This document shows positions 1-9,775 of a stretch of 39,865 nt of DNA, in pieces. The DNA comes from Chromohalobacter beijerinckii (GTDB lineage Bacteria > Pseudomonadota > Gammaproteobacteria > Pseudomonadales > Halomonadaceae). The position numbers and the translations under genes were made by a program. The notes under the pieces are model-generated. The model was given only the letters and a program-made list of their open reading frames with translations, had not been told where the DNA came from and ran no database searches. The stretch lies in the NCBI RefSeq assembly GCF_023061185.1, contig NZ_JAKGAK010000025.1:1-39865 (forward strand), in the 5' to 3' direction. Numbering within the stretch: the first letter of the stretch is position 1; the number at the start of each line of letters is the position of its first letter.

Positions 1-206
1 CTGCGCCGCGCCGCCGCAACGGCACGATTTACATCTTCAGCACCACAGGCCGCGACTTTAGTTAGCTCCTCTCCTGTAGCCGGATTCCAAGTGCCCAACG
101 TAGCACCTTCACTGGCTTGGACATGCTGGCCATCAATGAAGGCTCCATCCGGCATGATTAGCCGGTTGCGCAAGTCATGCCAGAAAGACAGGTCATGTGC
201 CGCCAT
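1..206 (-). CDS. Aldehyde dehydrogenase, N-terminal part (cut by window edge)
   Basis: The first 68 codons of a gene reading out of the left edge. The translation begins MAAHDLSFWHDLRNRL and continues with an FIDGQ segment and a WNPATGEEL segment, then VNRAVAAARR. This is the usual NAD(P)-dependent aldehyde dehydrogenase start, closest in style to PuuC-type enzymes that oxidise gamma-glutamylaminobutyraldehyde. The catalytic Cys and Glu lie outside the window, so the substrate cannot be judged. The ATG at 206 is preferred because GGAGA ends 8 bases before it. An in-frame ATG at 221 has no clear ribosome site. A promoter block identical in layout to those of the yjiH and monooxygenase units lies upstream, which suggests a shared LysR-type control. 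An aldehyde dehydrogenase next to a GMC alcohol dehydrogenase fits sequential oxidation of an alcohol to an acid, which is an inference from context. Confidence 0.8.
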   Translation of the reverse strand, partial: MAAHDLSFWHDLRNRLIMPDGAFIDGQHVQASEGATLGTWNPATGEELTKVAACGAEDVNRAVAAARR

Positions 207-227
207 AAGGTGGGTCTCCATCGTAGA

Positions 228-241
228 TTCATTGTTATCAA
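228..241 (-). repeat. Leader element shared with the yjiH leader (copy 1)
   Basis: On the minus strand this reads TTGATAACAATGAA and lies 21 bases before the aldehyde dehydrogenase ATG at 206. The identical 14-mer occurs at 3563-3576, 22 bases before the preferred yjiH ATG. In both leaders it is followed by TGGAGAC, which holds the ribosome site. Same sequence at the same distance suggests a conserved 5' untranslated element, perhaps for post-transcriptional control. Its function is unknown. Confidence 0.5.
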
Positions 242-242
242 A

Positions 243-256
243 CGCCTTTTAAGGCG
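243..256. promoter_or_regulatory. Inverted repeat in the aldehyde dehydrogenase leader
   Basis: The sequence CGCCTT-TT-AAGGCG is a perfect 6-2-6 inverted repeat between promoter block A and the aldehyde dehydrogenase start. The yjiH and monooxygenase leaders lack it. It could be an extra operator or a small RNA hairpin. There is no T-run, so it is not an obvious terminator. Confidence 0.35.
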
Positions 257-263
257 CTCTACT

Positions 264-334
264 CACCATGCTCTCCCCGCCTAGTTAACTAAAATATTTT
301 TATATTAAGAAAAGAATCATTTTTTCCTATCCAA
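264..334 (-). promoter_or_regulatory. Promoter/operator block A with LysR-type box
   Basis: One of three blocks that align without gaps (others at 3944-4014 and 8975-9045). Shared parts on the plus strand are CACCATGC, then 13 bases, then TTAACTAAAATATTTTTAT, then an ATCAT and a CTAT(G/C)CAA segment. On the minus strand the 19-bp stretch 314-332 reads GGAT-N11-ATTC, the T-N11-A form of a LysR-type box. The AT-rich part would sit near the -35 position of the aldehyde dehydrogenase promoter, 79 bases before its ATG. The likely binder is the LysR protein encoded at 4090-5031, which is an inference from proximity. The remaining gene-free stretch, 335-502, shows only a small hairpin-like ATGAG/CTCAT pair around 400-425 and nothing I can name. 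Confidence 0.6.
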
Positions 335-502
335 TACACACACAGATATGGAGAAACCAAAAAGCATACACTGTGCCAAATAGAGCACACACAGCATGTC
401 TGCCACGATGAGATGAACTCATGAGGAGCAACGGCAAGTCCCGCGCGGGTGCCAAGCCAGCCCCTCGACACCGCCTGTCATGCCGTATCCGGACATCAAC
501 GG

Positions 503-527
503 AAAAAAACTCCTCGCGGACGAGGAG
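503..527 (-). terminator. Rho-independent terminator of the yjiH-GMC unit
   Basis: On the minus strand the sequence forms CTCCTCG-TCCG-CGAGGAG, a 7-bp stem with a 4-base loop, followed directly by seven T residues. It lies 33 bases after the stop codon of the GMC dehydrogenase gene and closes that transcript ahead of the aldehyde dehydrogenase promoter. Confidence 0.85.
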
Positions 528-559
528 CTTTCAGGCGCAACGCTGAGACATATCGAGCG

Positions 560-2161
560 CTACAAGGCGTCGGACCTGATCATATCGGCCGCCTTTTCAC
601 CGATCATGATGCTCGGTGCATTGGTGTTGCCCCGCACGATAGAAGGTATGACGGAAGCATCGGCTACCCTCAGCCCCTCGATGCCTCTGACTCTGAGCTC
701 GGGAGTCACAACGGCCATGTCATCTTCGCCCATCTTGCAGGTGCCTACGGGGTGGAACACGGTGGCGGCGTAGTCCCGAATGTAGGCTAGAAGCTGCTCG
801 TCGCTTTGCACCTTTTCTCCGGGAAGCATCTCCTTTCCGCGATAGGGCGCAAACAGCGGATCGGCGAGTATCTGTCTCGCCAGCCGAATGCCTTCGATCA
901 GGACCCTGGCATCCTCCTCATCCGACAGGAAGTTGAAGTCCAGCTCCAACTCCTTGTCAGCATTCAAGCGGACCTCACCTATACTCTTCGGCTTCAGCAC
1001 GCAGGTATGCACCGCATAGCCGTGCCCCCACTCGAAAAGCCGTCCGCGATGACTGCGATAGCCCGGCACGAAGTGAAACTGGACGTCGGGCAACTGACTA
1101 TCGGAGCTCACCCGGGCGAACCCACCGGCTTCGACATAGTTAGTGGAGAGCCACCCCTTCCGCTTAAATATATACTGCCAGGGCGAGGCCAGCACCTTCG
1201 GCAGAGAGCCCCGAGAAAACCCGAGCGTCTTCGGACTCTTTGAACGGACTGTCACCAGACCATCCAAGTGGTCCTGCAGGTTCTTACCCACGCCCGGAAG
1301 ATGGTGTCTAACGCCCACACCCGCCCCGGAAAGCGTCTCTTCAGGCCCGATACCGGAGCGCAGCAGGATGACAGGTGATCCCAACGTACCGGCGCAGAGG
1401 ATCACCTCGTGGTTCACGCGAATCGTGGCCACCTTTCCCTGGCTGCGCAGCGTGACGCCTTTCGCCACCTTGCCCTCCATCAGCACTTCGTCGATCTCAC
1501 AATCGGTCATTACGTGCAGGTTTTCCCGCTTGTCCAGCACGGGATGAATGAAGGCACGATAGCTGGATAAACGCCGCCCGTTGGTCTGCGTCAGGTCGTA
1601 GATACCACAGCCTTCCAGGCGACTGCCATTGAAATCCGGGTTCTCCGGCACGCCAGCGTTTTTCGCGGCATCGACGAACATCCGGGAGAAGGGATTAGGA
1701 TCGCGCGCCCTGTCGACCAGAAGCTCACCGTCGGTGCCATGATAGTCGCGGCTTTGACCGATCATGTTCTTTTCGGACTTCTTGAAATAGGGGAGCACAT
1801 CACGCCATCCCCAGCCGCGACAGCCCAGCGATTCCCAGTGATCGTAGTCGCTGGCATCACCGCGGATGTAGATCATGCTGTTCATGGAGGCAGACCCGCC
1901 CAAGGCCTTGCCTCGCGGCGTATGCAGGCGGCGTCCATTCAGCCCTTTCTGCGGCACGGAGAAGAAATTCCAGCTGAACGTCTTGCTCTTGTATAGCGTG
2001 ATCGTTCCGGCCGGCGTCTGGACTCTCTGGCTGGCATCGCTCCCCCCTGCCTCGATCAGGCAAACCTTGACCGAGGGATCGCTGCTCAACCGATTGGCGA
2101 TCACGCTCCCGGAGGAGCCGGCCCCAACGATCACATAGTCGAACACCATCTCGTCACTCAT
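560..2161 (-). CDS. GMC-family FAD-dependent alcohol/choline-type dehydrogenase
   Basis: A 533-residue member of the glucose-methanol-choline oxidoreductase family. These enzymes oxidise primary alcohols to aldehydes with FAD and pass electrons to the respiratory chain or oxygen. The N-terminal FAD-binding motif GAGSSG is at residues 13-18, and LIEAGG follows at 35-40. The C-terminal catalytic pair is His470 (in FHPVGT) and Asn514 (in GNTNAPSIMIGE). Length is normal for the family (530-560). There is no signal peptide. The gene starts 32 bases after the yjiH-like gene ends, so the two are probably cotranscribed, with a terminator 33 bases downstream. It resembles AlkJ and polyethylene-glycol dehydrogenases as much as BetA. 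The choline role is not assumed because no betB or betI is visible. With the neighbouring aldehyde dehydrogenase it would convert an alcohol to a carboxylate. Confidence 0.9.
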   Translation of the reverse strand: MSDEMVFDYVIVGAGSSGSVIANRLSSDPSVKVCLIEAGGSDASQRVQTPAGTITLYKSKTFSWNFFSVPQKGLNGRRLHTPRGKALGGSASMNSMIYIRGDASDYDHWESLGCRGWGWRDVLPYFKKSEKNMIGQSRDYHGTDGELLVDRARDPNPFSRMFVDAAKNAGVPENPDFNGSRLEGCGIYDLTQTNGRRLSSYRAFIHPVLDKRENLHVMTDCEIDEVLMEGKVAKGVTLRSQGKVATIRVNHEVILCAGTLGSPVILLRSGIGPEETLSGAGVGVRHHLPGVGKNLQDHLDGLVTVRSKSPKTLGFSRGSLPKVLASPWQYIFKRKGWLSTNYVEAGGFARVSSDSQLPDVQFHFVPGYRSHRGRLFEWGHGYAVHTCVLKPKSIGEVRLNADKELELDFNFLSDEEDARVLIEGIRLARQILADPLFAPYRGKEMLPGEKVQSDEQLLAYIRDYAATVFHPVGTCKMGEDDMAVVTPELRVRGIEGLRVADASVIPSIVRGNTNAPSIMIGEKAADMIRSDAL

Positions 2162-2193
2162 GATTCCACCACCAAAGCGTCAGGAAAATAGGG

Positions 2194-3540
2194 TCAGAAG
2201 ATAATATGTGCGGCCAGCGCCACAAGCGGGATCGCGATGATCGTCCTGATGATGAAGATGAGGATAAGGTCCACGAGGCTCAGCGGAATATCCGCCTCCA
2301 GCATAGCGTTGGCGCTTTCGGTAAAGAACACGATCTGTACCAGGGACAACGTACAGACAAAGAACACACTCATCGTGCTGACATCCTGCGAGGCGATGAT
2401 GATGCTGGGCAGCGCCACTTCGGTTATCGCTACCAGCACCGTCGGGGCGATGGCCCCTACATCGGGTAGATTGAACAGGGTTAGGTACGGTTCCACCAGA
2501 ACGCCGAGATAATCCATCACCGGGGTGTAGGTAGCCAATGCCAGCGCAGGAGTCGCAATGGCTACGACGTAGGCCACAACCTTTTGGGCAAACTTCAGAG
2601 AGTTGACGAAGGAGAAGATCGCATTTTTGAGCTGCGCATCGCGGGCTCGTTCCGCGGCGGCATCGCAGGCGCGAAGGAAGATGTTCCTGCCGGAAGCCAC
2701 CTCAGCATTGCGGCTGTCTTCTTTCTGCTCGCCATCGATATAGCAGTCCTTTTTGTTGGACAGTGGCGGCAGTCTCGAGGTCACGATCGCAACAACGAAG
2801 GTCACAATGAAGGTCACGACGACGATCTGAGGAAGATAAGAGGCGATCCCCGCGATCGAAGCAAGTACGGCCATAAAGCCGATATCAGCGACGCTGAAGT
2901 TGGCCGCGATACTAGCGGATTCCCTCTGAGTGTACTTCTTTTCCTTATAGAACTTGTTCGTGATATAGACGCCGACGGCGGGAGATGCCACGAAGGATGA
3001 AACGGCATCCACCGCCGCTCGCCCAGGCACCTTATACAACGGCCGCATCAAGGGCTCCATCAGGGTGCCCACGAACTCCGTGAAGCCGAACTCGGTCAGG
3101 AAGTAGACGAAGAACCCCGCGATAGCAACGGTCAGAAGCACAGTGCCCGCGATGTAGATAGCCATGCCTCCGACATCCTCGCTCAGCATCCATTCGGGTC
3201 CGATATGGAAGATGCAGGCGAGGGAAAACACCAGCGCCATCAGGAAAAGGAAGCCAGAGATCCACCCATCCTTGCCGTGATGCGAGGCCAGCGCCCGGTG
3301 TGAGAAACACCGGGAACAGACCCATGTCATGAACAGTAGCGCCATGGAGATGAGGAGCACGTATTCCAGCCCTCCGCCCAGCAGCGACTTGACCTTTTCC
3401 ACGGCCATCACCAGAGGAATGTCTCTCCCACCCTCGGCGGTCGAGAAAGGCACGAAGAACACACAAACGCCCACAAGGCTGCCAAGGATGGCCTTGATGC
3501 CGCTCGGCATCATACTTTTTATTCGTCCGACATTTTCCAT
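2194..3540 (-). CDS. YjiH-family membrane protein (nucleoside-recognition/Gate domain)
   Basis: A polytopic membrane protein of about 448 residues with roughly 10-11 hydrophobic segments. The central stretch contains the glycine/proline-rich Gate signature seen in YjiH proteins (EPLMRPLYKVPGRAAVDAV, followed by ASPAVGVYITNKFY), and a second Gate-like half lies near the C-terminus around EVALPSIIIASQDVS. The family is thought to be transporters but the substrates are unknown. The frame is open to an ATG at 3600, but GGAGA at 3546-3550 stands 5 bases before the ATG at 3540 (an adjacent ATG is at 3543), so 3540 is chosen. Cotranscription with the GMC dehydrogenase suggests that it imports the alcohol substrate or exports the product, which is an inference. 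Promoter block B is unusually far away, about 425 bases upstream of the start. Confidence 0.8.
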   Translation of the reverse strand: MENVGRIKSMMPSGIKAILGSLVGVCVFFVPFSTAEGGRDIPLVMAVEKVKSLLGGGLEYVLLISMALLFMTWVCSRCFSHRALASHHGKDGWISGFLFLMALVFSLACIFHIGPEWMLSEDVGGMAIYIAGTVLLTVAIAGFFVYFLTEFGFTEFVGTLMEPLMRPLYKVPGRAAVDAVSSFVASPAVGVYITNKFYKEKKYTQRESASIAANFSVADIGFMAVLASIAGIASYLPQIVVVTFIVTFVVAIVTSRLPPLSNKKDCYIDGEQKEDSRNAEVASGRNIFLRACDAAAERARDAQLKNAIFSFVNSLKFAQKVVAYVVAIATPALALATYTPVMDYLGVLVEPYLTLFNLPDVGAIAPTVLVAITEVALPSIIIASQDVSTMSVFFVCTLSLVQIVFFTESANAMLEADIPLSLVDLILIFIIRTIIAIPLVALAAHIIF

Positions 3541-3562
3541 CATCGTCTCCAGATAAAGACTT

Positions 3563-3576
3563 TTCATTGTTATCAA
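3563..3576 (-). repeat. Leader element shared with the aldehyde dehydrogenase leader (copy 2)
   Basis: A perfect copy of the 14-mer at 228-241 (minus strand TTGATAACAATGAA), placed 22 bases before the yjiH ATG at 3540. The downstream TGGAGAC ribosome-site segment is also shared. An in-frame ATG inside the element (3567) could start yjiH but has no good ribosome site. Confidence 0.5.
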
Positions 3577-3890
3577 TCGTCCCCCCAGAAGGCTGACCAT
3601 GAACGGTCATCCAGGGCGATTAGGGAAGGGATGGGGTGTCCCCGGTCACTCAGGACCGCGAACGACTGTTTCGGGGAAAGGGGACGGGGAACGACCGGCA
3701 TTGAACGGCCCGAATTCGCCAGCATGGTCGGGCGATGCCGAGAGCGACCCAAAATAGCACTTTTAGAGCTCACAGGCCGGAAGCATGATGGCACCGTGAG
3801 AGGATTCAAATCGACGCCTAAGAGGGCCGCTTTCGTCGTCATTCGCGCCGGACGCCGATGCCGCCGGCCAGGCAAGTCAGGTGACTGCAT
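3573..3890 (-). CDS. Doubtful 105-codon reading frame in the yjiH leader
   Basis: A frame starting [20 protein letters not shown] lies between promoter block B and yjiH. The ATG at 3890 is preceded by GAGAGA at a 6-base distance and by an A-rich AATAACAAACAG leader, which looks like a genuine translation start. The frame ends 32 bases before the yjiH ATG, inside the shared leader element. The protein is rich in Arg, Pro and Ser, lacks hydrophobic periodicity, and matches no family I know. It may be a short operon leader gene, the remnant of a deleted or decayed gene, or chance. The same segment accounts for the approximately 340 bases by which this leader exceeds the aldehyde dehydrogenase leader. 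Confidence 0.2.
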   Translation of the reverse strand: MQSPDLPGRRHRRPARMTTKAALLGVDLNPLTVPSCFRPVSSKSAILGRSRHRPTMLANSGRSMPVVPRPLSPKQSFAVLSDRGHPIPSLIALDDRSWSAFWGDD

Positions 3891-3943
3891 GGGAGTCTCT
3901 CTTCTGTTTGTTATTGTCGGGTCGTTTTTGTGCCCGTTCAGGC

Positions 3944-4014
3944 CACCATGCATTGTCGCGCTGATTAACTAAAATATTTTTATTCGAAGAACAGCATCAT
4001 GAATTTCTATGCAA
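3944..4014 (-). promoter_or_regulatory. Promoter/operator block B with LysR-type box
   Basis: The second of three aligned blocks. It shares CACCATGC and TTAACTAAAATATTTTTAT with block A at identical spacing. The LysR-type box at 3994-4012 reads GCAT-N11-ATGC on the minus strand. It is the only perfect inverted repeat of the three and therefore probably closest to the consensus. It lies just beyond the 3' end of the LysR gene and points toward the doubtful frame and yjiH, whose ATG is about 425 bases downstream. Confidence 0.6.
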
Positions 4015-4024
4015 CGCACTGAAC

Positions 4025-4050
4025 GGCCGCCTCCCATCTGGAAGGCGGCC
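4025..4050 (-). terminator. Stem-loop after the lysR gene
   Basis: GGCCGCCT and AGGCGGCC form a perfect 8-bp stem around a 10-base loop, 40 bases after the LysR stop codon and directly before promoter block B. There is no T-run, so termination is plausible by position only. Confidence 0.45.
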
Positions 4051-4089
4051 CATCGAGCGTGAACGCGTGCTATGACGCCGGGGGAATCC

Positions 4090-5031
4090 TCAGGAAGCGG
4101 CCAAGCCCTCGTCGAGCTGGGCGAACACCTTGCCGTGAGCCTCGGGGTCACGCGCCAGGCGGTGCATGGCCTCGGCGGCGGGGCTCAGGCGCAATCCACG
4201 CAAGCAGGCGATCCCCATGGAGAGCGGGCGCGCTTCGTCGACCAGTTGCAGCGGCTTGAGACCGCCACCGTCCAGCGATTCCAGCGCCGTGAGCGGCGTG
4301 TTGAACAGCGAGAAACCGAAGCCATTGGCAACCAAGCCGCGCATCATGTCCATCGATTTGGCACGGTGGGCGACGGTCGGCGACAGGCCATGGTGGGTGA
4401 AGATCGACAGAAAATACTCGCGGCTCAGCGGCCAATCCAGCAGGACCATGGGATAGGCGACCAGTTCCTCTAGCGAGACACTGCCGCGTTCACTCAAGGG
4501 ATGATCGGCCGCCACCACGGCATAAGGGGGAAAGCGATATAGCGGCGTGAAATCGATATCTTCGGGGACCTGGAGATCGTAGGTAAAGGCCAGTTCATAG
4601 TCGCCCTGGCCAAGCCCGCGAACGATGTCCACCTGGTTCATTTCATCGCAATAGAGGCTCACCGAGGGATGACGGTCGGCGAAGCGACGCAGCAGTTGGG
4701 GCAAAAAAACCGGGGCGAAAGTGGGGAAAGCCACCAGGCGCAACTCGCCGCCAATTTCCTCGCCCAGCGACAATGCATATTTCTCGAGCCCTTCCGCATC
4801 GCGTAGCAATTCGCGGGTCCGGCTCAGCAACTGCTTACCCGAGGGTGTCAGGGACAAGCCCTGTGCGTGGTGGCGAACGAACAGCTGAAGCCCGGAAATA
4901 TCTTCGATTTGCTGGATCGCCGCCGAGATCGATGGCTGAGAAACATGCAGTTTGCGAGCCGCCTGGGTAACGCTTAACAGCTCCCCGGCGACCACAAAGT
5001 AGCGCAGCTGCTTGAGAGTGAATTGACGCAT
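4090..5031 (-). CDS. LysR-family transcriptional regulator
   Basis: A 313-residue protein with the standard LysR layout. The winged helix-turn-helix covers residues 1-60 (LSVTQAARKLHVSQPSISAAI), followed by a linker helix and a two-lobed effector-binding domain from about residue 90. Members bind T-N11-A boxes and activate catabolic promoters when an effector is bound. It lies on the same strand 143 bases after the M20 deacylase gene and could be the last gene of that operon or have its own promoter; I see no clear promoter in the gap. None of the three conserved promoter blocks precedes it directly, so classical divergent autoregulation is absent. All three blocks in the window contain T-N11-A boxes upstream of catabolic genes, and it is the only LysR gene here, so it is the natural candidate regulator. 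The effector is unknown. Confidence 0.92.
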   Translation of the reverse strand: MRQFTLKQLRYFVVAGELLSVTQAARKLHVSQPSISAAIQQIEDISGLQLFVRHHAQGLSLTPSGKQLLSRTRELLRDAEGLEKYALSLGEEIGGELRLVAFPTFAPVFLPQLLRRFADRHPSVSLYCDEMNQVDIVRGLGQGDYELAFTYDLQVPEDIDFTPLYRFPPYAVVAADHPLSERGSVSLEELVAYPMVLLDWPLSREYFLSIFTHHGLSPTVAHRAKSMDMMRGLVANGFGFSLFNTPLTALESLDGGGLKPLQLVDEARPLSMGIACLRGLRLSPAAEAMHRLARDPEAHGKVFAQLDEGLAAS

Positions 5032-5174
5032 TGGCTCGCTACCATCGCTGGAGAATCGGTCCCCCCTACGATAGGCGTAGGGAAATCCGGCTCAGCATAT
5101 CAGGTACCGACGTCAAGCGTCCTGGCTCCCTGCCTCTTCGGCGACAATGGCCAATGCCCGAGATCGGGCGCTAA

Positions 5175-6383
5175 TCACGCCGGTGCGGGGCGCGGGAACT
5201 CGCCTTCCGCCAGACGGTGTGCCTCGGGGCCGGCGAGCGTCGCCGCCAGCCGTGCCAAGAATGCTTCGCAGCGGGCCAGTTGGTCGCGCGTCACGAATTC
5301 ATCGGGCTGGTGCCCTTGGTCCATGCTGCCGGGCCCGCAGACCAGGGTCGGGATTCCCAGCTCACGCTGGAAGAGCCCGCCTTCGGTGCCATAACCGATG
5401 CGCGCCAGGTCCCGGTCGTCGAGCAGCGTCATGATGAAGTCCACCAGGGCATGGTCGTCGGCCATCGACAGCCCCGGATAATCGCCTAGACGCTCCAGGC
5501 GAATGCTCGCCTCGGGCGCGGTTTCGCGCATCTCGGCTTCCAAGGTTGCGGCGACGGCCATCAAGGCGTCGAGCAGCGCCCCGGGGTCGTCCTCGGGGAC
5601 GTTGCGGATCTCGATGTCCAGCCGACAATCCTGCGGCACGATATTGAGCGCCGCCCCGCCCTGAATGGTGCCAACCTGTAGCGTGGTGTGGGGTACCGCA
5701 AAGCGCTCATCGAAGGGGCCGTGGCTCGCCTTGGCCGCGGCCGTCTCCTCGACCCAGTCGATCAAGCGGGCGGCAACGTGGATGGCATTGACGCCCCGAG
5801 GCGCCATGCCGGAGTGGCAAGCCTTGCCACGTACATGCAGCCGCGCCGCCAGCTTGCCCTTGTGCGCAGTGGCCGGGCGCATGGAGGTCGGTTCGCCGAC
5901 CAGGCAGGCGGCCGGTAACACCGGCTGATGCGCGAGGTCCGCCAGCAGCGTGCGCACGCCCACGCACCCCACCTCCTCATCATGGGAGAAGGCCAGATGC
6001 ACGGGCACGGCCAGTTCGGCATCCACCAGTGCGGGCACGGCGGCCAGCACGACGGCCAGAAACCCTTTCATGTCGGCCGTGCCGCGACCGAACAGGCGCT
6101 CGCCCTCAATGCTCAGCCGGAATGGATCGAAGCGCCAGTCCTGGCCAGTCACCGGCACGGTGTCGGTATGCCCGGAGAGCATCACGCCGGGGCGATCCGC
6201 CGGACCAATGGTGGCATAGAGATTGGCCTTTTCGCCGCTTGCGTCGGGCACCCGCCGCGACGCCACGCCATAGCGAGCCAGGTAGTCTTCGATGAAGGCA
6301 ATCAGCGTCAGGTTGGAGCGGTGGCTGGTGGTGTCGAAGGCCACCAGTTCGGCAAGCAGGTCGACGACGGTGTCTTGGGACAT
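5175..6383 (-). CDS. M20-family deacylase, ArgE/acetylornithine deacetylase-like
   Basis: A 402-residue metallopeptidase of the M20 family that hydrolyses N-acyl amino acids or related amides. Metal-site motifs are in order: SGHTDTVPV (around residues 70-78), GRGTADMKGF, HDEEVGC with the general-base Glu, GEPT, and GSMDQGHQPDEFV near the end. Length and motifs match ArgE (about 385). However, the position at the end of a monooxygenase-RidA-DUF1028 operon makes a catabolic N-acyl or amide substrate more likely than arginine synthesis, so no symbol is given. The start ATG at 6383 has only a weak GGGGTT ribosome site. The gap to the preceding DUF1028 gene is 102 bases, the widest in the operon. 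Confidence 0.88.
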   Translation of the reverse strand: MSQDTVVDLLAELVAFDTTSHRSNLTLIAFIEDYLARYGVASRRVPDASGEKANLYATIGPADRPGVMLSGHTDTVPVTGQDWRFDPFRLSIEGERLFGRGTADMKGFLAVVLAAVPALVDAELAVPVHLAFSHDEEVGCVGVRTLLADLAHQPVLPAACLVGEPTSMRPATAHKGKLAARLHVRGKACHSGMAPRGVNAIHVAARLIDWVEETAAAKASHGPFDERFAVPHTTLQVGTIQGGAALNIVPQDCRLDIEIRNVPEDDPGALLDALMAVAATLEAEMRETAPEASIRLERLGDYPGLSMADDHALVDFIMTLLDDRDLARIGYGTEGGLFQRELGIPTLVCGPGSMDQGHQPDEFVTRDQLARCEAFLARLAATLAGPEAHRLAEGEFPRPAPA

Positions 6384-6485
6384 GGAGAACCCCGGATGGT
6401 CAGGGAAGAAAGCAAGGCAGCGACGCGAGACTGAGCCCTCGCCTTGTGCAACGGCGATGGTCCAGGCAGACCTGCCCAGAAGATA

Positions 6486-7160
6486 TCAGCGCTCGTCGCC
6501 CGGCACGCCGTAGGACGGCGAGGCATCGGGGCGCGAGGCACGCAGCACGTAGGCGTCGCGCTGCGGCAGATAGTGCTCCCAGATCATGCGTAGCTCGGCC
6601 AACGGAGCGACGTGCCAGTCGACCCGCAGATCGACCACCGGCCAACTGGCCCGGTCGGTGACCTTGAGCCCCGCCGAGAACACCGGCCCCATCTCGCCGC
6701 CTGCGGCCAGGCCGGCATCCATGGCAGCCAGCAGGCGCTCGGCGAGCTCACCGTCATGGGCCTCGAACGCAGCGACCATGGCGTCGATCACGCCCTCGTC
6801 GGCGAGCATGTTGCCGCCCGCCACGCAGTCCCGCCCTTGTCGGGTGGCATGTATGCCCAGGGTTTCGGCACCGCTGTGCACCGCGCTAGCCCCCTTGGCA
6901 TCGAGGACCTGGAGTTGGCGCCACTGCGGATAGGTTTCATGCTCGCGAAGACGTGCCATCACGCCCTCGGCGTCGAGCCCCTCCTCCAGCAGTTGCACGC
7001 CCAGTTGTCCCAGCGCGGGATTGGTCACGTTCTGCGTCAGTACCGCTCCCTTGCCGGGGGCGATGAAGGGACAACGGCTGGCCACGCAGATGCTCGAGGA
7101 ACTGATGGCGGTACCGAACTGACCGGTCTCGCGGCAGAAGCCGGCAATGGAAAAGGTCAT
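6486..7160 (-). CDS. DUF1028 family protein (Ntn-hydrolase-like fold)
   Basis: A 224-residue protein beginning MTFSIAGFCRETGQFGTAISS and containing GAVLTQNVTNPALG, both hallmarks of DUF1028. Members are thought to adopt an N-terminal-nucleophile-hydrolase-like fold and are often encoded beside RidA and M20 peptidases, but no reaction is established to my knowledge. The ATG at 7160 overlaps the RidA stop codon by 4 bases (ATGA) and has AGGAGA 7 bases upstream, so translation is probably coupled. The company of RidA and a deacylase suggests hydrolysis of an amide or imine product in the same pathway, which is an inference. Confidence 0.85.
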   Translation of the reverse strand: MTFSIAGFCRETGQFGTAISSSSICVASRCPFIAPGKGAVLTQNVTNPALGQLGVQLLEEGLDAEGVMARLREHETYPQWRQLQVLDAKGASAVHSGAETLGIHATRQGRDCVAGGNMLADEGVIDAMVAAFEAHDGELAERLLAAMDAGLAAGGEMGPVFSAGLKVTDRASWPVVDLRVDWHVAPLAELRMIWEHYLPQRDAYVLRASRPDASPSYGVPGDER

Positions 7161-7597
7161 GAGTGGTTCTCCTCGTCGTCTGACTCCTTCGGTATAACGG
7201 CGATGATGTCGATCTCCATCAGCCATTCGGGCTGGGCCAGGCCTGCCACCACCAGGCCGGTGGAGATCGGGAAGACGCCCTTGAGCCAATTCCCCACCTC
7301 GCGGTAGACAGGCTCGCGGAATCGCGGGTCGGTGATGTAGGTGGTGGTCTTGACGATGTGGCTGAGGTCGGAGCCGGCTTCTTCGAGCAACTGCTTGACG
7401 TTCTTCATGGCTTGCTCGGCCTGGGCCCGTGGATCGCCCAAACCGACCAGCCGCCCCTCGAAGTCAGCGCCTACCTGGCCACGGACATAGACGGTATTGC
7501 CCGCCTTCACCGCCTGGCAGAGATCGTTGTCCAACGCCTGATTGGGATAGGTTTCCTTGGTGTTGAACATGCGGATTCGGGTATGCGTCGGCATCAT
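7157..7597 (-). CDS. RidA-family (YjgF/YER057c/UK114) deaminase
   Basis: A 146-residue RidA-fold protein. The family hydrolyses reactive enamine/imine intermediates, releasing ammonia, and works as a trimer. Visible features are the N-terminal RIRMFNTKETYP segment, VYVRGQVGAD, QAEQAMKNVKQLLEEAG, VKTTTYIT and a C-terminal substrate-loop region (LVVAGLAQPEWLMEIDIIAVIP). The conserved Arg of classical RidA near the C-terminus (usually in the R.xVxV strand) is not obvious, so this is probably one of the Rid subfamilies tied to a specific pathway. The start at 7597 overlaps the monooxygenase stop codon (ATGA) and has GAGGG upstream. The stop overlaps the DUF1028 start in the same way. The arrangement recalls RutC acting next to the monooxygenase RutA. 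Confidence 0.88.
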   Translation of the reverse strand: MMPTHTRIRMFNTKETYPNQALDNDLCQAVKAGNTVYVRGQVGADFEGRLVGLGDPRAQAEQAMKNVKQLLEEAGSDLSHIVKTTTYITDPRFREPVYREVGNWLKGVFPISTGLVVAGLAQPEWLMEIDIIAVIPKESDDEENHS

Positions 7598-8946
7598 TCG
7601 GCCCTCGCGCTGGCGCTGTATGTCGGGGGTGGCGTCGCAGCGGTATCCCGCGGTGCCGTCGTTGATTGCGCTTGCAGGTGATAGTCGAGATACCGGCGCT
7701 GTGTGGCGATGTGGTCGGCAATATGCTTGGCATCGTGCCAGACACCCCAGATGAAGCTGGAACCCCGCCGTGACAGCCACGGCAAGCCCAGGAAGTAGAC
7801 GCCGGGTTCGGTGGAGATACCGCGCTGATGATGCGGCTTGCCGTCCGCATCGAAGGCATCGACATCCAGCCAGCTGTAATCAACCTTGAAGCCGGTGGCC
7901 CAGACGATCGCGCTCACGCCGGCCGCCTCCAGGTCGAGCTCTCGCAACGGCTGGGTGACGCACTCAGGATCGGGGGTAATGCGGCGCGCATCGGGGTCTT
8001 CCGGCAGGTCGAGCCCGTTGTGCGCAATGTACGCGTCGGCGTCATCCAGCAGCGCGCGAAGGTTCTCGTCACCACGGGCCAGGTTGTCGGCCAGGTCCGG
8101 GCCGAAGGTCGCCACACCGTCGTCGAACGTTTGCGTTCTCCCCACCAGTGTCATGCCTCGATGAGCGAGTTCTCGGAAGTCCACCGTACGGCCGCCGCGG
8201 GCGCCACTGACGGCGATGGTGACGTGCTCGGTGCCGGGCTGCATGGCCTCGGCGTCCCACTTGCCGAGCACGCCCAGCCACCAGCAGAAGTCACGGCCGC
8301 GATAGGTACGCGGCGGCCGGTCGTGAGGCCCGACCGAGAGATACACGCGCTTGCCGGCCCGCAACAACTCATCGGCGATCTGCACGCCGGAGGAGCCGGC
8401 ACCGACGACCAGCACCGCCCCGTCGGGCAGTTGCTCTGGATGGCGATACTCGGAGGAATGGAGCTGTCTCTGAGACCCGTTGCGGGGCGCGATGGCAGGA
8501 ATGACGGGGTGCTGGAAGGGGCCGGTCGCCGCGACCACGCGATTGGCTACGATCACGCCCTGCGAGGTCTCGACGGTGAACCCCAGACTGCCCTCGTTGC
8601 GCGTCACCCGATGAACGTCCACGCCCGTGCGGATAGGGGCGTCTATCTGGCGTGCATACGCCTCGAAATAGATCGCCACGCTCTCCTTGGAAGGAAAGTC
8701 GTCGGCGCCGATACGAGCGTCGACGGCATCGAATGTCAGACCCGGAAAACGGTCGTGCCAGGCTGGGCCGTTGGCGACCAGCGAATCCCAGCGAGCCGTG
8801 CGCCAGGCTTCGGCGATACGGTGGCGCTCCAGCACGAGATGCGGCACGCCGAGCTTGCCCAGGTGCTCGCTCATGGCCACGCCGGCCTGGCCGGCGCCGA
8901 CCACGAGCGTATCAATATGCAGGTTATCGAGAGTGAGCTCGGTCAT
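7594..8946 (-). CDS. Flavin-dependent monooxygenase, CzcO-like (class B type)
   Basis: A 450-residue NAD(P)/FAD-dependent enzyme of the flavin monooxygenase/Baeyer-Villiger-like group. The FAD motif VVGAGQAG is near the N-terminus and the NADPH motif VVGAGSSGVQ lies in the middle. Between them QLHSSEYRHP replaces the textbook FxGxxxHxxxY/F motif in relaxed form. The ATGF motif (VWATGFKVDYSWLD) and a C-terminal GVWHDAKHIADHI helix follow. Such enzymes oxygenate N or S atoms or insert oxygen next to a carbonyl. The start ATG at 8946 has AAGGAGA 6 bases upstream; a longer frame to 8976 lacks this. It is the first gene of the operon and is preceded by promoter block C. The likely role is the opening oxidation of the pathway substrate, which is an inference. 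Confidence 0.88.
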   Translation of the reverse strand: MTELTLDNLHIDTLVVGAGQAGVAMSEHLGKLGVPHLVLERHRIAEAWRTARWDSLVANGPAWHDRFPGLTFDAVDARIGADDFPSKESVAIYFEAYARQIDAPIRTGVDVHRVTRNEGSLGFTVETSQGVIVANRVVAATGPFQHPVIPAIAPRNGSQRQLHSSEYRHPEQLPDGAVLVVGAGSSGVQIADELLRAGKRVYLSVGPHDRPPRTYRGRDFCWWLGVLGKWDAEAMQPGTEHVTIAVSGARGGRTVDFRELAHRGMTLVGRTQTFDDGVATFGPDLADNLARGDENLRALLDDADAYIAHNGLDLPEDPDARRITPDPECVTQPLRELDLEAAGVSAIVWATGFKVDYSWLDVDAFDADGKPHHQRGISTEPGVYFLGLPWLSRRGSSFIWGVWHDAKHIADHIATQRRYLDYHLQAQSTTAPRDTAATPPPTYSASARAE

Positions 8947-8974
8947 CGGCGGTCTCCTTGTTGTTTGTGACGAC

Positions 8975-9045
8975 AACCTTATGAGCCGCGCTTGGTTAGT
9001 TAAAATATATTTATTAACTATTGGGAATCATAAAAACCTATGCAA
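8975..9045 (-). promoter_or_regulatory. Promoter/operator block C with LysR-type box
   Basis: The third aligned block. It reads GTTAGTTAAAATATATTTAT where A and B read TTAACTAAAATATTTTTAT, followed by ATCAT and CTATGCAA at the same spacing. The LysR-type box at 9025-9043 is GCAT-N11-ATTC on the minus strand. A weak -10 candidate, CATAAG, lies at 8978-8983. With the box centred near -65, transcription would begin near 8969, 23 bases before the monooxygenase ATG. The short leader contains AACAACAA (8958-8965) abutting the ribosome site. Confidence 0.6.
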
Positions 9046-9190
9046 AGGCGCGCTATCCAGCGTCTCTCTCACAGCATCCGTCCATATAGTTCCACACCTG
9101 CTGGCGGCCACCGGGGACGGTGTCACGCGCGTGTCATCATCCGATGGATAGGCTGGAGACCTCACTTTTCTCACCACAACGCGAGGTCCC

Positions 9191-9775
9191 ATGAATATCA
9201 TCACCCCTTTCCTGATCGCCGCCGGCTTGCTGTTCACCGCGTCCGCCCAGGCGCAGCCGAACGTCTTCGACTATCCGCAACCCGATGACGCACCGGCCAG
9301 CTTCCATGTGGTCAACGAGATTCCCGCCGGGAGCTTCACCAAGTACGAAATCAATGCTGAGCACGGCCAGTTGATCGTCGACCGTTATGTCTCGATGCCG
9401 GTTCGCTACCCCGCCAACTACGGCTCCATCACCAGCTCAGCGGGTGGCGATGGCGACCCGCTGGACGCGCTGGTGCTCACCCGTGACAGCATCTATCCCG
9501 GCGCCGTGATCGAGGTCCGGGCCATCGGCGTACTGCGGATGGTCGACGACGGTGAAGCCGACGACAAAATCATCGCCGTGCCCACCGATGCCGTGGATCC
9601 CAGCTACGCCGACGTCGAGGAAATCGAGGACCTCCCGTCCATGCAAGCCGAACGGCTCAATGCCTTCTTCCGCGTTTACAAGGACCTGCCGGAGGGCGGC
9701 GATATCGAATTGAACGGCTTCGGCGATGCCAGCGAGGCGCGTGACATCCTGTCCCAAGCCTTCGATGCCTACTAG
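9191..9775 (+). CDS. ppa: Family I inorganic pyrophosphatase with signal peptide
   Basis: A 194-residue class I pyrophosphatase that hydrolyses pyrophosphate to two phosphates with Mg2+. The catalytic set is intact: KYEI, DR, YG, the signature GDGDPLDALV, then D-x-GE-x-D-x-K (VDDGEADDK), and YKDL near the end. It is unusual in carrying an N-terminal Sec-type signal peptide, with a hydrophobic segment at residues 3-16 and an AQA cleavage site after residue 21. It is therefore predicted to act in the periplasm, whereas the household enzyme is cytoplasmic. The spacing of the active-site residues matches E. coli Ppa. The gene stands alone between the minus-strand catabolic operon and a convergent membrane-protein gene. 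It may serve phosphate scavenging from extracytoplasmic pyrophosphate; the cytoplasmic form is presumably encoded elsewhere. Confidence 0.92.
   Translation: MNIITPFLIAAGLLFTASAQAQPNVFDYPQPDDAPASFHVVNEIPAGSFTKYEINAEHGQLIVDRYVSMPVRYPANYGSITSSAGGDGDPLDALVLTRDSIYPGAVIEVRAIGVLRMVDDGEADDKIIAVPTDAVDPSYADVEEIEDLPSMQAERLNAFFRVYKDLPEGGDIELNGFGDASEARDILSQAFDAY

Follow-up and report, generated by a model that had tools for sequence, protein, structure and literature searches.

We identified three promoter blocks in a 39,865-nucleotide stretch of Chromohalobacter beijerinckii DNA (the window, which is the whole of contig C18) that are most probably the promoters of a single regulon under the HinK-like LysR regulator encoded at 4090-5031, a reading to which we assign a probability of about 0.86, with binding by this protein predicted and the inducer and enzyme roles deduced by comparison with known systems. 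The pathway would be histamine/imidazoleacetate (hin) catabolism, which leads from histamine through imidazoleacetate to aspartate, if the enzymes function as their families suggest. An initial annotation of this DNA had placed blocks at 264-334, 3944-4014 and 8975-9045, with shared words at fixed spacing and a T-N11-A box in each and all pointing toward minus-strand genes, and these features are as described. It had also proposed that one LysR protein controls several units of one pathway, a view strongly supported by the presence of the motif in 30/30 genomes with the LysR and by its position ahead of the same catabolic units in other genera, and a search with an HMM of the LysR family agrees that the window encodes one such protein (E<=10, frames of at least 60 aa). 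The genes concerned are as follows.

7594-8946, minus strand: FAD monooxygenase (FMO), hinF-like, proposed imidazoleacetate monooxygenase (Pfam/NCBIfam; order as in hinFLHG)
7157-7591, minus strand: RidA, hinL-like, enamine deaminase (PF01042; HinL is named an enamine deaminase)
6486-7160, minus strand: DUF1028 protein, hinH-like by position (PF06267; gene order)
5175-6383, minus strand: M20 amidohydrolase, hinG-like (PF01546; PA5390, hinG, is a probable peptidic bond hydrolase)
4090-5031, minus strand: LysR regulator, HinK-like (PF00126/PF03466; PDB 3fzv and 6m5f, E ~1e-60)
2194-3567, minus strand: membrane protein with a Gate domain (YjiH-like), perhaps a transporter, located behind block 2 (PF07670)
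560-2161, minus strand: GMC oxidoreductase, next in the yjiH unit (PF00732/PF05199)
1-207, minus strand: 5' fragment of an aldehyde dehydrogenase (ALDH), hinD-like (73% identity over 67 aa to the ALDH of genome G013)

All three blocks contain, without mismatch, the 43-nt minus-strand core GNATNNNNNNNNNTGATNCNNNNNNNNNNATAANNNTATTTTA, which has the form GNAT-N9-TGATNC-N10-ATAA-N3-TATTTTA. Without gaps, blocks 1 and 2 agree at 55/77 positions, and the earlier description of the blocks as near-identical is too strong for block 3, because it shares 42/77 positions with block 1 and 40/77 with block 2; blocks 1 and 2 have a 19-nt word, read from the sequence, in common without any difference, and block 3 agrees with it at 16/19. 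Scanning of the whole genome (3,340,801 bases in 60 contigs) for the core returned three exact occurrences, all inside the window, and none of the reversed control, such that the exact core is confined to the three blocks and is not scattered elsewhere. At up to three mismatches, one other site was found (two mismatches, contig C4), again with no match of the reversed control. The shorter pattern ATCAT-N6-CTATSCAA at up to two mismatches gave 49 matches genome-wide (the three blocks exactly, none with one mismatch and 46 with two) versus 26 for its control. The blocks had further been regarded as copies of one promoter; the motif is kept across genera, and copying need not be assumed. The additional site (C4:77579-77621 in G000, L210) is kept in 9/10 same-genus genomes (it is absent from G008), and 7 of the 9 genomes carrying it are without LysR or FMO orthologs.

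Presence of the motif follows presence of the regulator. Among 275 Halomonadaceae genomes scanned for the core at up to two mismatches, 39 carried it, with no control match seen, and 30 encoded a LysR ortholog (58-100% identity; next best 41%), a count that leaves out four further genomes reaching E<=1e-60 only via distant LysRs. The core was present in 30/30 genomes with the ortholog versus 9/245 others, these nine being seven same-genus genomes with the C4-type site and two (G254 and G026) with one two-mismatch site each; near the C4-type, G254 and G026 sites, a search confined to panel genes found one ABC ATPase at 32% identity. FMO orthologs (at least 69% identity) occur in 29/275 genomes, which are the LysR set minus G024, with G034 and G246 (FMO at 60%) left out of the count. 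G024 has the LysR and a two-mismatch core and no FMO ortholog at E<=1e-120, indicating, in this one genome, that the motif can stand without the enzyme.

The genes behind the motif were surveyed in the neighbourhoods of the 30 genomes, which hold 64 sites at up to three mismatches, each core being assigned the panel gene that followed it on its own strand at a distance of no more than 700 nt. A block lies upstream of FMO in 28/29 genomes (27 at up to two mismatches), of ALDH in 17/18, of a sodium:solute symporter (SSS) in 7/12 and of a class II aldolase in 5/9, while 5/12 SSS and 4/9 aldolase genes have no block directly upstream. No core at up to three mismatches was found in the FMO promoter of G044 or the ALDH promoter of G112, nor in two 20-kb loci (L093 and L094) where FMO relatives of 60% identity adjoin distant LysR genes only. 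At six of the 64 sites the first 700 nt hold no panel gene, and two of these (in G044 and G024) precede an ABC transporter at ~1.1 kb. In G112, G139 and G175, lysR is divergent from FMO and the block lies between them.

Alignment of 60 sites on the search pattern yielded a logo in which each block can be divided into two boxes and a -10-like hexamer; the 60 genomic sites come from related genomes and are not independent, and selection by pattern inflates the searched letters only, not the flanking logo positions.

9025-9043, minus strand: block 3 box A, dyad resembling GSAT-N11-ATSC, centred at ~-65 and predicted to be where LysR recognises the promoter (exact core and 60-site logo)
8994-9016, minus strand: block 3 box B, ATAAnnATATTTTA plus weaker outer half-sites, centred at ~-36 and predicted to be the activation site (logo)
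8976-8981, minus strand: block 3 -10-like hexamer TAAGGT (logo positions 62-67, outside the search pattern)
3994-4012, minus strand: block 2 box A, perfect GCAT-N11-ATGC (alignment and core match)
3963-3985, minus strand: block 2 box B (core match; homology with sister genome G004 stops at 3961)
3945-3950, minus strand: block 2 -10-like hexamer CATGGT (sequence and logo position)
314-332, minus strand: block 1 box A (alignment and core match)
283-305, minus strand: block 1 box B (core match and logo)
265-270, minus strand: block 1 -10-like hexamer CATGGT (sequence and logo position)

The gap between box A and box B is fixed at 8 nt. Outside the searched letters, the logo has T at -1, before box A, in 53/60 sites, and, after box B, A at 46 in 57/60 and C at 49 in 50/60, and in the hexamer at 62-67 T, A and the final T occur in 41, 44 and 44 of the 60 sites, respectively; part of the letters of the ATAAnnATATTTTA core of box B lay in the search pattern. 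The window blocks thus have a T-N11-A dyad upstream of the target, as LysR-type promoters do, and, given the predicted -10 hexamer and the usual distance from -10 to start, box A would be centred at ~-65 and box B at ~-36 from the start. LysR-type promoters generally have a recognition site at ~-65 and an activation site at ~-35, and the predicted arrangement would correspond to this layout. A scan of 1-9300 with the plain sigma-70 consensus found no promoter-like site, a result that can be expected of activator-dependent promoters.

Two further sequences recur in the window. AANAANAA occurs in leaders downstream of blocks (window copies at 8958-8965 and 3908-3915, minus strand), on the sense strand in 17/60 leaders versus the antisense strand in 1/60, with a mean of 1.7 in shuffles and 24/3300 in random windows. 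We take it to resemble the Hfq/Crc catabolite-repression motif, and it may add catabolite repression over LysR control. TTGATAACAATGAA is present on the minus strand at 228-241 and 3563-3576, in the start regions of the ALDH fragment and yjiH.

Assignment of the pathway comes from gene families and gene order. In a review, the P. aeruginosa genes hinF (PA5393), hinL (PA5392), hinH (PA5391) and hinG (PA5390, a probable peptidic bond hydrolase) are described together with hinD, hinA and hinC, encoding an aldehyde dehydrogenase, an APC-type transporter and an aminotransferase, and with HinK, a LysR protein adjoining hinDAC that binds the hinD and hinF promoters, which have a motif in common, and responds to imidazole-4-acetate as effector; P. 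putida U has the additional hin regulators HinB and HinJ (PMC8231116). A Brevibacterium paper names HinF an FAD monooxygenase, HinL an enamine deaminase and HinH and HinG amidases (PMC6467879). The window order FMO-RidA-DUF1028-M20 matches these families and their order and we therefore read it as hinF-L-H-G, an assignment that rests on family and order and not on alignment to the named Pseudomonas Hin proteins. Two units recur in relatives, one of FMO-RidA-DUF1028-M20 with lysR and one of ALDH-APC permease-class III aminotransferase; the latter, which stands behind a block, corresponds to hinD-A-C. Breakdown of ectoine, homarine or polyamines had been considered and was dropped once the hinFLHG order was recognised. 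The window gene behind block 1 is a 5' fragment only because the contig ends there, and its frame is intact through the last codon. Neither a hinC ortholog nor the remainder of hinD was found in the window's own assembly (best matches 58% and 57%), and therefore histamine itself may not be the substrate. Among the matches listed in the histamine/imidazole literature, none concerned hin genes in Halomonas or Chromohalobacter, which does not prove their absence from print.

We propose that the LysR protein, probably as a tetramer, would hold box A (~-65) and box B (~-36, overlapping the -35 region), and that binding of an inducer, most likely imidazole-4-acetate as for HinK, would activate transcription. 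Block 3 would drive the hinF-L-H-G-like genes, whose products would convert imidazoleacetate into aspartate, and perhaps also lysR, the last gene of the operon; block 1 would drive the hinD-like aldehyde dehydrogenase, and block 2 the yjiH-GMC module, which occupies the position of a sodium symporter in the sister genome.

The window LysR matches structures 3fzv and 6m5f at E ~1e-60, and the LysR beside the FMO of G044 matches them at 1e-163; the latter protein belongs to another clade and is 41% identical to the window LysR over 264 aa. We infer that 3fzv and 6m5f are P. aeruginosa HinK and that the Pseudomonas-type clade is that of HinK. In a tree of LysR proteins from hin-type loci, the window LysR falls in a supported Halomonadaceae-Oceanisphaera clade of 31 rows that stands apart from the 37-row Pseudomonas-type clade, and it is therefore not in the Pseudomonas HinK clade; the outgroups are few and on very long branches, so the root carries no meaning. 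G044 (L090, L201) has both a window-type and a Pseudomonas-type LysR, with its hin-like genes split over two places.

Beyond the family, a class-wide scan of 369 genomes found 26 places outside the window's genome (one exact, one with one mismatch and 24 with two) and 13 control matches, counted by eye; the exact match (G464, L321) lies upstream of a 73% FMO relative. A matrix made from the 60 sites was scored on the best 80 of at least 548 FMO relatives in public genomes, mostly Pseudomonas and Burkholderiaceae, and on L321. The region upstream of FMO scored >10 bits in 36/81 loci, 34 of them independent once L231 (the contig of G016 again) and L321 (a locus that the motif itself had led to) are left out. 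Such scores were reached upstream of RidA in 0/78, DUF1028 in 1/79, M20 in 1/79, ALDH in 1/31, AT3 in 2/19, lysR in 0/54 and GMC in 0/9 of these loci, and many other Pseudomonas FMO promoters lay below 10 bits, some below zero (PA7, -6.8). With this matrix, therefore, the footprint at hinF reaches outside the family in part, and that at hinD does not.

Within the regulon, the least secure connection is that between block 2 and yjiH-GMC. The core end of block 2 lies 402 nt from yjiH. When the first 9700 bases of the window were compared with G004, the two were 95-98% identical from 3961 to 9700, and below 3961 there was no match at E<=1e-5 to the first 50 kb of the 57-kb G004 contig, placing the limit of homology two bases past box B of block 2. 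In G004 the identical core leads to a sodium symporter, whereas in the window it leads to yjiH-GMC. (A short ORF between block and symporter in G004, at L084 7026-7220, may encode a small partner protein.) No GMC match at E<=1e-170 was found in the other 274 family genomes. GMC relatives of 57-78% identity, the two highest values resting on partial genes at the edge of a stretch, occur in 10/80 hin-type loci elsewhere (the best 80 of at least 548), in Pseudomonas, Paraburkholderia and Mesorhizobium; yjiH had no match in the same 80 loci, and among the 64 sites in the neighbourhoods of the 30 genomes it stands behind a block in the window alone. The break in homology at the edge of the block and the distribution of GMC suggest that the yjiH-GMC module was probably gained and joined at the block 2 operator. 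A more speculative proposal, which we consider distinctly doubtful, is that the LysR operator is a fixed socket for exchanged entry modules, with yjiH-GMC now in block 2, and that the GMC enzyme produces the aldehyde by oxidation of an imidazole alcohol such as imidazole ethanol (histaminol), replacing the histamine transaminase as the entry to imidazoleacetate breakdown.

These data also bear on other explanations of the blocks. The LysR regulon could be real and block 2 the leftover promoter of an exchanged symporter unit, with yjiH-GMC separately controlled, as the ~400 nt between block and gene, the end of G004 homology at the block edge and the absence of yjiH behind a block in any other neighbourhood examined would all allow; however, block 2 matches the core exactly and in the correct orientation, leaders are similarly long (397-519 nt) in the seven symporter units of relatives, and hin-type clusters of Pseudomonas, Paraburkholderia and Mesorhizobium repeatedly include GMC genes, and we regard this explanation as unlikely while giving it real weight. 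It is improbable that a different regulator of this pathway uses the blocks as its operators and that LysR merely travels along. Motif, LysR and FMO do occur together in nearly all cases, and P. putida U has the further hin regulators HinB and HinJ (PMC8231116), but the T-N11-A dyad of box A stands in an arrangement consistent with LysR promoters, the 60% FMO relatives beside distant LysR only (L093, L094) are without the core at up to three mismatches, in three genomes lysR points away from FMO across the block, and G024 keeps LysR and a two-mismatch core without FMO. As for a mobile or general promoter element, or a chance likeness of AT-rich DNA, the core is AT-rich and two blocks have 19 exact bases in common, yet three exact sites in 3.34 Mb with a control of 0, and sites that track the regulator across genera, leave these readings next to no probability, and we reject them on the whole-genome scan.

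With this regulon under a HinK-like LysR, a set of Halomonadaceae genes with generic labels (DUF1028, RidA, GMC) would gain an operator model at the level of single bases, a named pathway and a predicted inducer open to direct test. The regulon also offers a clear case in which the operator stayed while the module behind it changed. Provided that the -10-like hexamer is genuine, the blocks would resemble LysR promoters in general in having a T-N11-A dyad near -65 and another site near -36; unlike them, they have a wider box B, with outer half-sites 15 nt apart, and a nearly fixed ATAAnnATATTTTA core. With the HinK regulon of P. aeruginosa and P. putida U, the system shares a LysR regulator, the families and order of hinF-L-H-G in FMO-RidA-DUF1028-M20 and, in relatives, the hinD-A-C equivalent ALDH-APC permease-aminotransferase and an operator common to both units (ALDH 17/18). 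It differs in that the regulator belongs to a separate clade and the PA7 FMO promoter scores below zero under the present motif, in that the window has three blocks with yjiH-GMC behind one, and in that lysR adjoins the hinFLHG-like unit in many relatives whereas hinK of PAO1 adjoins hinDAC. For HinK, a further study reports binding at T-N11-A boxes of promoters outside the hin set, including that of pqsR, in contrast to the three-site picture obtained here (PMC10912698). The hin gene system is already known from Pseudomonas and is found here with one module swapped, and block 2 is its new part.
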